A stretch of DNA of 64,000 nt from Streptomyces sp. NBC_01669. GTDB taxonomy: Bacteria > Actinomycetota > Actinomycetes > Streptomycetales > Streptomycetaceae. The stretch is from the NCBI RefSeq assembly GCF_026339735.1, contig NZ_JAPEQG010000001.1, positions 7,625,001 through 7,689,000 on the forward strand, given 5' to 3'. Made by a program: the position numbers and the translations under genes. Shown in pieces: positions 24,360 through 29,710 of this stretch; position 1 is the stretch's first letter, and every line of letters begins with the position of its first letter. The notes beneath the pieces are model-generated. The model had not been told where the DNA came from, made no database searches, and saw only the letters and a program-made list of their open reading frames with translations.

Positions 24360-24519
24360 GAGCCTGTCGGGCCGCGAACGTGTCCTCGTTCTGTCCCCAT
24401 GGGCCAAGACGAAGAACCGCCCCCGACCTGCCGGGGCGCTGCCCTCTCTGTCAAAGTAGATCGAGTCAGGCATACTGGATGATTCATTGAGTCGAGGGCG
24501 GAGAAGGAGTAGTGCCCGG

Positions 24520-24933
24520 GTGGCCAGCACGAATGACCACGGGACCCCTGATCCGCAGGTAGAAGCCCGTTCGACCGGTCCGCGCCGGTATACCGCGGAG
24601 TACAAGGCGAGGATCCTCGCGGAGTACGAGACGTTGGACAAGAAGGGCAAGGGCGCTCTGCTGCGGCGGGAGGGTCTGTACTCGTCGTTGATCACGACGT
24701 GGCGGCAGCAGCGGGACAAGGGCGCCCTGGACGGGCTCGCCGCGTCGGCCGGACGGCCGAAGGCGGACCCGAGGGACAAGGAGATCGCGAAGCTGAAGGC
24801 GGAGAAGGCCCGCCTGGAAGCCGACCTCGCGAAGGCCCGCACCGTCATCGAGGTCCAGGGAAAACTCTCCGCGCTGCTCGACCAGTTCGCCACGGACAGC
24901 GCCCCGAACAGGAACGGCGAGAAGAACCAGTGA
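24520..24933 (+). CDS. IS3-type transposase OrfA
   Basis: 137 aa. It has a helix-turn-helix DNA-binding domain ([20 protein letters not shown] ... [14 protein letters not shown]) followed by a leucine-zipper-like coiled-coil ([20 protein letters not shown]) that pairs OrfA and OrfB. The GTG at 24520 is taken with GGAG about 10 nt upstream. Its stop overlaps the orfB GTG start (GTGA), so OrfB would be translated by reinitiation rather than only by frameshifting. Confidence 0.82.
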
Positions 24934-25658
24934 CCGGGGCCCAGTTCGCGGCCGTGGCGTTCAACACCGCCCGCAACCAGGCCCTTGAAGAGCTCACCGG
25001 GCTGGTCGGACGCGTCCAGGCATGCGCCGCGCTCGGCGTGAGCCGTGCCACCTACTACCGCCAACACCGCCGAAGCCCCGCCCCGGCCAAGCCGCGGCGG
25101 GAACGGCGCCGACACCCCCGCGCTCTCGCACCCGAGGAGGAGATACGGGTCCTCGATGTGCTCCATTCCCCGGAGTTCGCTGACATGGCGCCCGCCGAGA
25201 TCTACGCGGTCCTCCTGGACCGGGGTGTCTACCTGTGCTCGGAGTCGACGATGTACCGGCTCCTGCGACGACATGGCGAGGTCCGTGAACGCCGCCGTCA
25301 GGCCGTCCACCCACCCCGGACCGTTCCCGAGCTGGTCGCCGAGGGCCCGAACCGGGTCTGGAGCTGGGACATCACGAAGCTGAAGGGGCCGGTCAAGGGC
25401 GTCTACTACTGCCTCTACACGATCATCGACATCTTCAGCCGCTACACGGTCGGCTGGATGATCGCCGCCCACGAGAACAAGGACCTCGCCGAGCGGTTCC
25501 TGTCCGAGACGATCGCCAAGTACGGCATCGAACCCGGGCAGTTGACGATCCACTCGGACCGCGGGTCCCCGATGGTCGCGCAGAACGTCGCCCAGATGAT
25601 GGCCGGTCTCGGCGTCACCAAGTCGCATTCGCGGCCGAAGACGTCGAACGACAACCCG
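24930..25658 (+). pseudogene. IS3-type transposase OrfB, 5' part
   Basis: First 243 codons of the DDE integrase subunit. Present are the HTH-like start, the rve core beginning PNRVWSWDITKLKGPVKGVY (first catalytic Asp) and TIHSDRGSPM (second Asp). The frame runs to KTSNDNP and then enters foreign sequence at 25659. The third catalytic residue, Glu, lies in the separated 3' part at 29.1 kb, so OrfB cannot be made unless the insert excises. Confidence 0.88.
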
Positions 25659-25659
25659 T
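25652..25659 (+). repeat. Left junction core of the nested element (att-like)
   Basis: CAACCCGT, identical to the right junction. It is the shared core from which the orfB reading frame is restored. Confidence 0.75.
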
Positions 25660-25664
25660 TGCCA

Positions 25665-27763
25665 TCACACTGCGCTCCTTCGGGATTCTGCGGACAGAGC
25701 GGCCTGTTGGGCCGCGATGCGGTCGCTGAGCCTGATGCCCTGGGCGACCTCGGGTGCGGGGTGGTCGGGGCCGGGTGGGTGGAAGAGGTAGCAGTTCTTG
25801 TCGTTGTAGGCGATGCCGTGGATGAGGCCGGTGCGCCGCCAGATCTTGACGGTGGTTTCGCTGACGCCGATCGCGTCGGCGTACTCGGTGAAGCTGAGCA
25901 GGCCGCGTGCCCGCAGACGGTCGTAGCGGTGGGTGAGGTGGTAGACGTCGCGGATGTTGCGGACCAGCAGGGCGGTGAAGGGCTGGCCCTTGCCGCTGGC
26001 GTGACCACGCGCGTTGAGAATCGCGGCGATCTCGCGGTGGGTGTGGTCCTCCAGGAGCTGGTCGATCAGGTCGACGGTGGCCGCGGGGTCTTCCAGACCT
26101 TCCCGCCGGCCAGCGGCATGGGGAGGTTCAGGGTGTGGTGCTGCCCGGCGGACAGCCGGATCTGCGCGGTGATCTGGTCGGTGCGAGTGAGGGTGACATC
26201 GGTGATCAGGAGGCGGGCGATGCGTTTGCGTTCCCGCATCGGGGTGTCGGCATCGGCCCACAGGCGGTGGACGTCGGCGGCCAGGGTGCCCAGCCGGTCG
26301 CGGACGGCTGCCTCGAGCGGGGCGGCCTCGCTCTTGGCGCGTTCGTAGGTGTCCTTGGCCTCGGTGACCTCGCGCAGGGCGCGGTTCCAGTCGGCTTCCA
26401 GGGCGTCGGCGACCAGGCGGTTGTCGGGGTCGACGGCGAGGTAGCGGCGCCGGGCGAGGTCGGCGTGGTGCTGGGCCCGTTTCACGTGGCTGGCCCTGAG
26501 CTGGTCGGCCTCGGCGGCGCGGGCGGTGAGCTGGTCGGTGACTTTCAGGGCGGCGTCGATGGCCAGCGGGGTGAGAGCGCCCAGGACGAGGCGGGCGACG
26601 GCGGCGTCCAGGGCCTTGCCGGGCAGGCGTTCGCAGATCCGGGCGCCGTCCTGGATGGCATGGGTCATGCACCGGTAGTCGGGCAGGAGTTCGCCGCGGT
26701 GCAAGCGGTAGCCGACCGTCATCCGCCGGCCGCACTTCCCGCAGATCACCAGCCCCTGCAGCAGCGCCGGCCCTTCCCGCGGCGGCCCGGCCTTGCTCCC
26801 CTCGCCCCGGCCGGTCGCGTTGGACAGGAGCAGTCGGCCGTTGTCCTCCCACTGCTCGAAGGAGAGGTAGCCCTCGTGGTGGTCCTCGATCAACGCGGTC
26901 CACTGCTCGCGCGGGACGTCGGACAGCGTGGTCTTCCCCTCCGGGGTGCGGCCGGAACGTTTCCGTCCGTAGACGAACGCGCCCGCATAGCAGGGGTTGT
27001 GCAGCATGTTCAGTACCCGCCAGTGCTTCAGCGGGCCCCAGACCAGCTCACCCTTGTGGGCGCCGGTGCGGATCCGGGCGGGGAAGGACAGCTGGTCGGC
27101 GGCGAAGGCGATGACGACCTGGCGGGCCGAGCCACTCGCCGCGAACAGGGTGAAGACCCGCTCGACAGCGCCGCGGACCGCGGCATCAGGGTCCTTGACG
27201 ATCCGGTCCAGTGGATCATGGACATAGCCGATCGGCAGGCACTGCTTCAGCTCCCCGCGCCGGGCCTTGGACAGCTGACCGCCCCGAAGACGCGCCTTGA
27301 GCAGGTGCAACTCCGCTTCGGACATGGTGCCTTTGAGCCCAAGGACGAGACGGTCGTTGAACGAGCGGGGATCGTAGAGACCGTCCTCGTCCAGGATCAG
27401 CGTCCCGGTCATCGCGCAGATCTCCAGGAGCCGATGCCAGTCGGTGTTGTTCCGCGCGAGGCGGGACACCTCCAGGCCGAGCACGATCCCGGCCCGCCCG
27501 AGCGAGACCTCGGAGACCAGCAGCTGGAAGCCGTCCCGGCCCGCCGCGGAAGCCCCGGACTGTCCCTGATCGGTGTCGATCACGGTGATCTGGCCCTCGC
27601 CCCAACCCAGCGCGATGGCCCGGCCCCGCAGCGCGTACTGCCGCTGGGTGGACTCGGTGTTGTTGACGACCTGCTTCAGCGAGGACTGACGGACATAGAG
27701 ATACGCCCCTCGCCGGAGTTGATCAGCGGTGACCTTCCCCGCTCCGGACGGCTGATCCTGCAT
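25665..27763 (-). pseudogene. Large serine recombinase, frameshifted
   Basis: About 700 codons in two frames. The N-terminal resolvase domain has the nucleophile region YLYVRQSSLKQV, then TDQGQSGAS and GLEVSRLARN. A recombinase domain (IGYVHDPLDRIVKDPDAAVR) and a zinc-ribbon (CGKCGRRMTVGYR) follow, then a coiled-coil. At about 26081-26088 one base is missing: the first frame ends KVWKTPRPPST, while a neighbouring frame continues AATVDLIDQLLEDHTHREIA and an HTH tail (SFTEYADAIGVSETTVKIWR, then YLFHPPGPDHP). The ATG at 27763 has GGGAG about 7 nt upstream. The break may disable it or be a sequencing error. Confidence 0.82.
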
Positions 27764-27793
27764 GACGGACTCCCTTACGAGCGCAACACTCCC

Positions 27794-27853
27794 GGTGACG
27801 GTGACGGTGACGGTGACGGTGACGGTGACGGTGACGGTGACGGTGACGGTGAC
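27794..27853 (+). repeat. Hexanucleotide microsatellite (GGTGAC)10
   Basis: Ten perfect tandem copies of GGTGAC, 30 nt upstream of the recombinase start on the opposite strand (GTCACC read in the gene direction). Perfect identity suggests recent slippage. Changing copy number could alter promoter spacing or coupling to the upstream genes. Confidence 0.95.
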
Positions 27854-27857
27854 GGGA

Positions 27858-28154
27858 TCAGGGTGGCTGGAGGCGTCCCAGGACCAGCGAGGCCAGGGCG
27901 TCGACGAGTTCGGCTGCGACATCAGCGGTGACATCGCCCCCGGCCGCCGGGGCCGCAGGCCCCGGCGGCTTGTCACGGACGGCGACCAGAGCGAGGATCG
28001 CGCGACTCCAGGCGGCCATGCCCGAGCGGGCCAGCACCGCGAAACCGTGCCGCCATCCACCGCCGTGACCGTGAACGACCGCGGACCGCAGCCGCTCGTA
28101 CTCCTCCGAGGTCCTTGTCCCGCCGTCCGCCTCAGCGGTCGGCGCCTCGTATGT
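27858..28154 (-). other. Small ORF without a standard start codon, between HTH gene and recombinase
   Basis: Reads TYEAPTAEADGGTRTSEEYE, RLRSAVVHGHGGGWRHGFAV, LARSGMAAWSRAILALVAVR and so on for up to 98 codons, with plausible protein composition. GGAGGAG lies just upstream of its first codons, but the expected start position reads ACA rather than ATG or GTG. It overlaps the 3' end of the HTH gene. It could be a third accessory gene whose start was mutated, or could start internally (GTG or ATG within FAVLARSGM). Confidence 0.4.
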
Positions 28155-28635
28155 TCTCCTCCTGGCCGTGGGCCCGGGCCTCGCGCCTGCGGGCCAGGGC
28201 CCGCTCGACGGACCGCGGGTGCACGGTGATCCCGAACGACTCGGCCACCACGACCGCCAAGGCCGGCGCCTTCAGCCCGGGGTTGGTCTCCAGCAGGGCC
28301 TCGAGGTGTTCCATGACCGGCCCGGTCAGCTTGCTGGGGCCCTTCGGGCCGGGCTTGCCCGGCGCCAGAGCCGCCGGGCCGCCCGCGTCCAGCGCGGCGG
28401 CGATCGCATAGAAAGACTGCCGGCAGAACCCGAACGCGGGCGCCGCCCGCGCCACGGGCACCTTGTCCACCCGCACCCGGCGCACCATCTCGTACTTGAC
28501 CTGCACCAGATCGTACGGATCCAGGAACGGCGAGTTGATGAACGCCTCGTCCACCACCTGCTCGGGCCGCGGGTTGAGCGTCCGGGACTCCTCCAGGGCC
28601 CGCACCTTCGCCGGATCGACCACTCTCGTCGCCAT
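28132..28635 (-). CDS. Helix-turn-helix protein of the serine-recombinase element
   Basis: 167 aa. An N-terminal segment (NPRPEQVVDEAFINSPFLDP, then YDLVQVKYEMVRRV) precedes an HTH (VPVARAAPAFGFCRQSFYAI) and a basic C-terminal region. This resembles N-terminal domains of transposases and is probably an accessory DNA-binding factor or directionality protein, which is inference. The ATG has AGGAGG 6 nt upstream. Confidence 0.75.
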   Translation of the reverse strand: MATRVVDPAKVRALEESRTLNPRPEQVVDEAFINSPFLDPYDLVQVKYEMVRRVRVDKVPVARAAPAFGFCRQSFYAIAAALDAGGPAALAPGKPGPKGPSKLTGPVMEHLEALLETNPGLKAPALAVVVAESFGITVHPRSVERALARRREARAHGQEENIRGADR

Positions 28636-28809
28636 GCCCGCCTCCTCTCCCGATGCCTGTCACCAGGATTCCGGCGCCACCGGGCCCGGCCAACCCCCAG
28701 GCCGATACCACGAGGAGTGAAAGAAGCAGGCCAGCGCATACCCCGGCGAAGAACGCGCCCCCATCCGGACCGGCGAGCTCCCCGAGCCACGGCACGAACA
28801 CCACGACGC

Positions 28810-29073
28810 TCACGACGTGATCTCCCCGACACCCCGCAGCCGGTCGATCAACCCGGCCAGCTCCACCAGATCCTGCGTCCGGAACGGACACGAACCCTCG
28901 GCGGCGACCACGAACGCGTCCACCGGCGCCACCGACGTCCACTCCGTCGGGATCTTCGACCGGCCGCCCACCTCGTCGAAGTAGTACACCCGGTCCCCAC
29001 GCCAGCACTGCCGACGCTCGATGAACTCCAACTCCAGCCCCGCCAGGGGATGGAACGGATGCGTCACCCGCAC
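28810..29073 (-). CDS. DUF5372 family protein
   Basis: 87 aa starting VRVTHPFHPLAGLELEFIER with WRGDRVYYFDEVGGRSKIPT and a conserved VDAFVVAAEGSCPFR strand. It matches DUF5372, small proteins typically encoded in mobile elements; function unknown. GTG start at 29073, 56 nt from the right junction, making it the first gene of the element's transcript. A GTG overlapping its stop opens a hydrophobic frame that has no stop before the recombinase, which I do not annotate. Confidence 0.75.
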   Translation of the reverse strand: MRVTHPFHPLAGLELEFIERRQCWRGDRVYYFDEVGGRSKIPTEWTSVAPVDAFVVAAEGSCPFRTQDLVELAGLIDRLRGVGEITS

Positions 29074-29128
29074 CCGCCCCTGACCTCCGTCTCCAGAGTC
29101 GGGATCACTTGCAGTTGACGGATCACGC

Positions 29129-29136
29129 CAACCCGT
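29129..29136 (+). repeat. Right junction core of the nested element (att-like)
   Basis: CAACCCGT, the second copy of the junction core. orfB resumes immediately after it (TACAGCGAG = YSE). Confidence 0.75.
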
Positions 29137-29468
29137 ACAGCGAGAGCCAGTACAAGACCCTGAAATACCGGCACGACTTTCCCGAGCGTTTCGGATCTCT
29201 CGAGGACGCCCGGGCGTGGTGCACCCAGTTCTTCACCTGGTACAACGAGGAGCATCGGCACTCCGGGATCGGCCTGCACACGCCCTACGACGTGCACTTC
29301 GGTCTCGCCGAGCAGCTCCGCGAGATGCGTGCCGACGTCCTCCAGGCGGTCTACGCGAAGCACCCTGAACGCTTCGTCCGCAAGCCACCAGAGCCCCCGA
29401 AGGTCCCCGCAGCGGCCTGGATCAACCAGCCGGCACCAGACGGCCCACTGATCCCAGCACAGCGTTAG
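29129..29468 (+). pseudogene. IS3-type transposase OrfB, 3' part
   Basis: Continues OrfB with NPYSESQYKTLKYRHDFPER, containing the third catalytic residue Glu, then FFTWYNEEHRHSGIGLHTPY and a proline-rich tail. It has no start of its own. Joined to 24930-25658 it gives a full-length OrfB of about 350 residues. Confidence 0.88.
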
Positions 29469-29710
29469 AACGATCTACCTGCCTTGATCGCTTTGACAGG
29501 TTCCGCTGTGGCGCAGATCGCCGGATCAGGCGCTCGGGGCGGGCGAGCCGTCCGGCCGGTTCGACCGGTTACGACAAGCTTGATGAGACGGACCCGGTGG
29601 TCTGCGTCTCACCGAATCTGGCGCACCGCAGCCCAGCGGCGACGCTCTGCGCCAGGTCGGATGCGAGAGGACAGTTGTCGGTGAGGGGTGGCAGGCTGCG
29701 CCCATGAGCC

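Follow-up and report, generated by a model that had tools for sequence, protein, structure and literature searches.

In Streptomyces sp. NBC_01669, the orfB transposase gene of an IS3-family insertion sequence (IS) is interrupted by a small element encoding a large serine recombinase (LSR), which raises the question of how the element came to lie at that particular point of that gene. The window, that is, the whole stretch of DNA analyzed, has 64,000 nucleotides (contig NZ_JAPEQG010000001.1, positions 7,625,001 to 7,689,000); coordinates are window positions, and labels such as L006 denote loci. Sequence comparisons make it highly probable that the element belongs to a family of LSR transposons whose attachment site in the target (attB) consists of conserved, mostly catalytic, codons in the transposition genes of other mobile elements. 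The ends of the element, its empty sites, the target position, the recurrence of this position and the clade structure were observed directly. The host IS and the element show the following arrangement.

24442 to 29505, plus strand: loaded IS, the host IS3-family IS with the element inside (seven copies in the genome, five of them empty)
24439 to 24441 and 29506 to 29508: 3-bp CTG duplications bordering the loaded IS
24487 to 24933, plus strand: orfA of the host IS (Pfam HTH_Tnp_1)
24930 to 25654, plus strand: interrupted orfB, 5' part up to the core AA, with the rve domain (Pfam rve, 9.2e-22; NCBIfam IS3, 2.1e-37)
25653 to 25654, plus strand: left core AA, on the transposase strand
25655 to 29131, minus strand: serine-recombinase element, 3,477 bp with one core counted (from three genome copies, L072 and exact empty sites)
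29130 to 29131, plus strand: right core AA (from junction comparison and empty sites)
29132 to 29468, plus strand: interrupted orfB, 3' part, starting C CCG TAC AGC GAG with Glu at the catalytic position (Pfam rve_3, 4.7e-13; same fragment in L006)

Removal of positions 25655 to 29131 leaves a 1,587-bp IS without mismatches to four of the five empty copies of the genome and with a single mismatch to the fifth. The sequence-only reading, which had placed an element here seamlessly inside a transposase gene, is thus borne out by the recovery of a natural empty IS, as is its statement that the insertion lies across the third catalytic residue of OrfB, since the gene is split at ...SND^NPYSE..., four codons ahead of the Glu at the catalytic position. 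Perfect 3-bp target duplications border all five empty copies, and each of the seven copies has its own, so that the two loaded copies represent separate IS insertions; both separate entry of the element into each IS and carriage by the IS fit these two copies.

The same reading had taken the 8-bp sequence CAACCCGT (25652-25659) as core, boundary and possible target. Comparison with L007 and L072 rules out this boundary: what the two ends have in common shrinks to CAAC in L007 and to AAC in L072. CCGT is therefore element sequence on one side, and its presence in this IS on the other side is coincidental. The constant core among copies is only AA (TT on the recombinase strand), and CAACCCGT is not supported as a target either. 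Boundaries outside the core, about which the reading had also asked, were not found in the copies compared, in which the ends do not vary and the true core proves shorter. Among relatives, the left end reads TT-N10-GTCAACTGCACCCGAT-like and the right end GGAGGTGCAGTATGAA-N9-TT-like on the recombinase strand, and the central dinucleotide AA/TT is common to the compared junctions (with unlike attP and attB), although TT was demanded by the end search itself and its independent support comes from the pairwise copy comparisons. Furthermore, in our reading of the consensus, ACTGCACC-like blocks are located at about the same distance from the core on both ends, a placement that would fit, as expected, an attP with inverted arms.

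Three near-identical copies of the element are found in the genome (10.8 Mb, five contigs): the window copy, C3:259274 (L006) and C4:647162 (L007). The window copy and L006 are within copies of the same IS, and L007 lies in another IS3-type orfB (by eye) with a rearranged 5' side; in our reading, an IS110-like remnant fills the space between the 5' part of this orfB and the element. Just 5' of the orfB lies a gene resembling a group II intron reverse transcriptase (L007:4595-6035, by eye). A pattern search for the target site in the same genome gave 10 matches, five of which were judged to be IS3 orfB from their translation. Outside this genome, L072 of Streptomyces sp. NBC_00841 shows 99.94% identity to L006 over 3,486 bp, and the two are in different IS3-type genes; Streptomyces sp. 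NBC_00841 also gave the nearest plasmid match among the matches listed. Identical or near-identical elements in different genes were found in L006/L072, L163/L168, L167/L171/L174, L082/L083 and L114/L120.

The recombinase gene of the window copy is frameshifted by the loss of one G from a G5 run; L007 shares the loss, and the gene is intact in L006, with a 699-aa protein, and in L072. The window copy and L007 share this loss but not the target, which suggests that the element moved once the base had been lost. From the sequences, this movement seems to have been helped in trans or carried out by the truncated enzyme; it is possible that the shared loss arose by repeated slippage or by assembly error.

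The recurrence of the target was studied in a scan with one genome per species (84,980 species), which gave at least 522 confirmed relatives, the best 80 of which were used. Among these 80 loci, 19 have no acceptable left end (including L127 and L145, with poor ends) and three have no host DNA, leaving 58 left junctions; L152, L154 and L156 are one host sequence, which gives 56 distinct junctions, and L103 was counted as the same contig as L056. Glu is the fourth codon after the junction in 56 of the 58, antisense to the LSR. The codon opened by AA encodes Asn or Lys in all 58 because AA itself opens the codon, and the informative part is therefore the Glu at +4. As a control in the same 58 junctions, Glu occurs 0-3 times at each of codons 0-12, 14 and 15 except codon 4; it is frequent only at codon 13 (31 of 55), which we read as the second Glu (LK-E) common in IS3-type transposases. 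In the two shifted frames, Glu is found at codon 4 zero and eight times. The frame is that of the transposase since the flank family searches match transposases, and that the Glu at +4 is the catalytic residue follows from known DDE families. A separate sample, found through DUF5372, contains eight loci outside this genome with three left ends, and all three show the motif (NAYAE, NALAE and NAVAE).

Flanking fragments were compared with protein families after removal of those too short; 67 of 69 N-side and 57 of 59 C-side fragments were used, with L154 and L156 omitted as copies of L152. The N-side fragments match Pfam rve (40 of 67) and DDE_Tnp_ISL3 (1 of 67), and the NCBIfam families IS481 (32), IS3 (28), IS21 (18), ISNCY_2 (6), IS630 (4), IS6 (2) and ISL3 (1). 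The C-side fragments match rve_3 (35), rve_2 (24), Mu-transpos_C_2 (8), ISL3 (1), Mu-transpos_C (1) and, weakly, IS66 (1); these counts overlap because the profiles cross-match. Target families are thus IS3, IS21, IS481-like, ISNCY-like and ISL3, and weakly IS66 (17.5 bits, cut-off 23.1). On the DDE_Tnp_ISL3 profile, the N-side fragment of L113 stops at 209 and the C-side fragment of L112 starts at 210. The earlier suggestion that IS3 orfB genes are recurrent targets therefore stands as far as recurrence goes, but the targets are far wider than IS3 orfB.

With a leave-one-out 42-bp matrix (-20 to +21), 46 of 52 sites scored higher than any background position in the window (about 128,000 positions). 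The sites thus carry a degenerate signature, part of which is protein conservation. A 128-row LSR tree, obtained by a quick method with midpoint root, shows a 101-row clade (SH-aLRT 99) that contains all elements labelled [N/K]xxxE, and 32 of its 101 rows have no assigned target. A more careful tree was restricted to the 73 rows of known type, leaving aside L159, L160, the sister clades and rows without an assigned target. In it, the N/K type switches 12 times, and at least 10 of these switches fall on supported branches, against a shuffled mean of about 22. Target types thus cluster but switch repeatedly, while the position stays.

LSRs of sister clades, with 38-48% identity to the window LSR, are likewise found within mobile-element genes. 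In a non-random sample of sister loci, 14 flank fragments were tested, and 13 of them gave matches to families of IS transposases, IstB or group II intron reverse transcriptases, several under the whole-protein cut-off, as expected for fragments; L059, L066 and L068 end at the contig, and L071 and the partial loci L180, L182-L184, L186, L188 and L190 are outside the 14. The flanks are the following.

L060: IS256
L062: IS4
L067: IS5
L069 and L070: IS701
L172: IS1380
L176: IS110
L161, L178 and L179: IstB
L061 and L175: group II intron reverse transcriptase
L187: IS3 at another motif (FYN)
L177: no family match, with a PRRW-VE motif as in L067
L065, in addition to the 14 and on the other side only: Transposase_mut

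In our reading, the junction coincides in IS4, IS5 and IS701 with the glutamate of the RW--E motif and in IS1380 with the aspartate of VLDIDDT; in istB it falls within the Walker A loop, where the N-side fragments cover the IstB profile to 101 and the C-side fragments from 100. The orientation is antisense, with the exception of the intron, IS110 and tyrosine-recombinase cases. One genome has, at three places (L062, L063 and L064), a repeated unit of about 4.05 kb that has inverted ends and bears a sister element.

Several observations weigh against a target defined by catalytic codons. Where identical or near-identical LSRs use different sites, eight of nine site pairs are only 27-57% identical on their N side and 37-63% on their C side (70 and 97%, respectively, in the ninth); three of the nine pairs come from L090/L094/L095, which are close but not identical and include the hybrid L095. 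All nine pairs agree at the core AA, at the first two bases (GA) of the Glu codon, and at -2 and +31, and with sites so weakly alike a plain sequence specificity is not evident. The matrix was trained with related sites retained and does not separate enzyme preference from transposase conservation, and the junctions were read just in the transposase phase and strand, the shifted-frame control being the one exception. Among the 67 N-side fragments, at least 26, many of them short or IS21-like, show no Pfam rve or ISL3 match. Among individual loci, L159 lacks the Glu and its gene matches no family, L160 has Lys in place of Glu, L149 is in a tyrosine recombinase gene (Pfam Phage_integrase, 2.2e-17), L007 has the IS110-like remnant on one side, and L095, L122 and L126 have mismatched (hybrid) flanks. 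Furthermore, we take the junction motifs in IS256 and in L187 to be conserved but not catalytic.

Two groups of these loci show further features. The element of L149, on a contig labelled Candidatus Argoarchaeum, is in sense orientation near a conserved C-terminal motif of the tyrosine recombinase (by eye). The left and right flanks of L095, L122 and L126 seemingly derive from different transposase types, which suggests recombination between element copies.

The genes of the element are transcribed in the order DUF5372, helix-turn-helix (HTH) protein, small protein and LSR, and agree with the set that the sequence-only reading had listed (DUF5372, HTH, a startless small open reading frame (ORF) and an LSR with a C-terminal HTH-like tail); its view that such a set, which is constant, marks a compact type of element is supported.

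28810 to 29073, minus strand: DUF5372 protein (Pfam PF17342, 1.4e-28)
28132 to 28635, minus strand: HTH protein (Pfam HTH_28), predicted double HTH
27858 to 28136, minus strand: small ORF, upstream part without ATG, GTG or TTG
27794 to 27853, no strand: ten GGTGAC units, in the gap between the small ORF and the recombinase gene
26066 to 27763, minus strand: LSR cut to 565 aa by a 1-bp deletion (Pfam Resolvase, Recombinase and Zn_ribbon_recom)
25665 to 26099, minus strand: C-terminal HTH-like tail of the recombinase, out of frame in the window copy and in frame in L006 and L072

The LSR domains PF00239, PF07508 and PF13408 are in order and all above their cut-offs, the catalytic domain comprises residues 20-171, and the Y-R-Q-S residues are invariant among nine LSR relatives. 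HTH matches of the recombinase tail in Pfam are weak and below the cut-off. The DUF5372 protein scores 99.2 bits (curated Pfam cut-off of 25); sequence searches for structural relatives in the PDB gave nothing below E 0.2 for it and none for the HTH protein, and the best fold-search E for DUF5372 was only 0.38. In the fold search, the model of the HTH protein, a predicted double HTH, shows weak likeness to paired domains and to the DNA-binding parts of TnsB, IstA and Mos1, with a best E of 0.019 for Pax5. A YE-LR motif at the same place in 12 of the 32 loci examined (frames chosen by script) suggests that the small ORF apparently encodes a conserved small protein. In L080, the HTH frame extends about 100 codons more and reaches the start of the LSR, perhaps a fusion. 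The GGTGAC array of L007 has one unit less than that of the window. Among loci L072-L160, the HTH gene is found in 87 of 89 and DUF5372 in 75 of 89 by the criteria used, several contigs stopping inside the element. No phage structural or conjugation genes were found, the five scanned protein pieces convincingly matching only DUF5372, HTH/transposase-HTH and LSR families.

On these grounds, the element would be an autonomous transposon of about 3.3-3.5 kb, whose LSR would recombine attP, formed by its two joined ends, with attB. In the clade of the window element, attB would be the stretch coding [N/K]-x-x-x-E, with E at the position of the third catalytic residue in DDE transposases. The crossover would fall on the AA that opens the N/K codon (TT on the LSR strand), and entry would consequently occur in one phase, antisense, and four codons ahead of the catalytic Glu. 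Such an insertion should inactivate the transposase. The LSR alone would pick the site through a degenerate DNA signature about 40 bp long; the element would circularise and be moved by the LSR, with a helper for excision. A helper role in directionality or targeting is probable for DUF5372, the HTH protein and the small protein. The benefit might be a target that is harmless (cheap to lose), abundant, widely conserved and able to carry the element along; the proposal of the sequence-only reading that insertion into another mobile element would spare the host a cost is plausible.

It is highly improbable that the LSR inserts loosely anywhere, with insertions in host genes lost to selection and those in mobile elements surviving: the sites are indeed diverse in DNA sequence and mobile-element genes are dispensable, but dispensability cannot account for the constancy of codon, phase and strand (56 of 58 junctions with Glu at +4, and low controls), and L159 is the sole left junction noted in this sample with neither the motif nor a recognisable mobile-element gene. 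Spread of loaded IS copies by IS transposition, with intact copies helping in trans and an LSR that is mostly dead after old insertions, would agree with the frameshifted LSR of the window, with the two loaded copies with their own 3-bp duplications, and with three loaded IS3 copies on one Polaromonas scaffold. Nevertheless, elements at least 99.9% identical occupy different target genes, and the window copy and L007 share the frameshift and differ in target, so the element seemingly moved itself or with help in trans; we consider this explanation quite improbable, since such carriage may add to the spread but leaves the choice of target unexplained. The loaded copies here and in Polaromonas suggest that the host IS may at times take the element along, aided by intact copies, but independent insertion gives the same picture.

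LSRs normally integrate without a helper, whereas excision needs a directionality factor. This established behavior speaks against a helper, either the HTH protein with its paired-domain-like fold or DUF5372, that would steer the LSR to transposase genes or transpososomes, and we regard such steering as unlikely. The presence of the HTH gene beside the LSR in nearly all loci, the weak likeness of its product to TnsB, IstA and Mos1, and short DUF5372-like matches near the LSR in some sister loci (close upstream in L059, L060, L061, L065 and L161, and one in L066) are in its favor; yet the HTH gene was not detected by tblastn with one query at L059-L071, where the readable flanks are nevertheless mobile-element genes. 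DUF5372 could still act as a helper.

Beyond site choice by the LSR in the window clade, a broader proposal is that this LSR-transposon superfamily consists of hyperparasites of mobile DNA, in which the attachment site of each clade is a conserved, usually catalytic, motif of a mobile-element enzyme (the DDE Glu or Asp, the istB Walker A, the group II intron reverse transcriptase or the tyrosine recombinase), and which switch between IS families at the homologous position and act as a natural IS suppressor; we judge the chances for and against this proposal, motifs included, to be about even.

Tn5397 and Tn4451 are TndX/TnpX-like LSR transposons, and the core of TndX is GA, in contrast to AA/TT in the window element. 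Large serine integrases of phages and of integrative and conjugative elements, such as those of phiC31 and SPbeta (YokA), have the same catalytic, recombinase and zinc-ribbon domains, and the window LSR profile matches the YokA structures 9dxh and 9dxd; however, the window element has 3,477 bp without phage or conjugation genes, and its target is another mobile element. Group II introns, inteins and homing elements also insert into conserved active-site codons, but they splice out and spare the gene, whereas the window element shows no sign of splicing and should break the transposase. TndX/TnpX-like transposons are likewise LSR-driven with many target genes. The same holds for the multi-targeting LSR clade, according to the sections of PMC10083194 that deal with it. 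In that clade (Durrant et al. 2022), 63% carry DUF4368 (PMC10083194), unlike the window LSR, where DUF4368 is not among the three Pfam families found at E up to 1, and the same sections do not tie the targets to transposase motifs. The IS607 family also comprises small, autonomous, serine-recombinase elements, which, as described in the consulted parts of PMC4058570 and PMC6188088, have the DNA-binding domain first and minimal target specificity; by contrast, the window LSR has the catalytic domain first and a narrow target, and no TnpB family is among the matches of the scanned element proteins.

Searches of open-licence PubMed Central (PMC) papers, with subscription papers and preprints outside their scope, found no description of LSR elements targeting transposase active sites and no papers on DUF5372. 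Multi-target LSRs are already known from those sections of PMC10083194, but a family aimed at catalytic motifs of other mobile elements appears, within the reach of these searches, to be new. If this is correct, a mobile element spread over many bacterial phyla has the active sites of other mobile elements as its niche. This would account for a class of broken transposase genes and supply a large set of natural attB sites from which to learn how DNA is recognised by serine recombinases, and the element may represent a natural brake on insertion sequences.

Relatives among the listed matches are spread over many bacterial phyla and include one contig with an archaeal label. Within the taxonomic family to which the window belongs, 12 of 394 genomes gave a match at E 1e-60, and DUF5372 was found in eight of 396 genomes of the phylum, this genome counted in both. 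No relatives were found among 50,697 phage records at E 1e-20; a phage origin was rejected on the lack of phage-record matches, and of two viral-contig matches, one (L161) is a sister element inside istB. In plasmids, 464 of 72,556 records match, many of them in rhizobia, with up to 13 places per record among the matches listed. L142 contains an extra ORF (L142:3291-3874) between the recombinase stop and the likely right end, a possible cargo. Finally, L087, L088, L131, L138, L147 and L151 are contigs of 3.35-3.51 kb that correspond approximately to the element alone and end at or near the cores, like collapsed multi-copy repeats.

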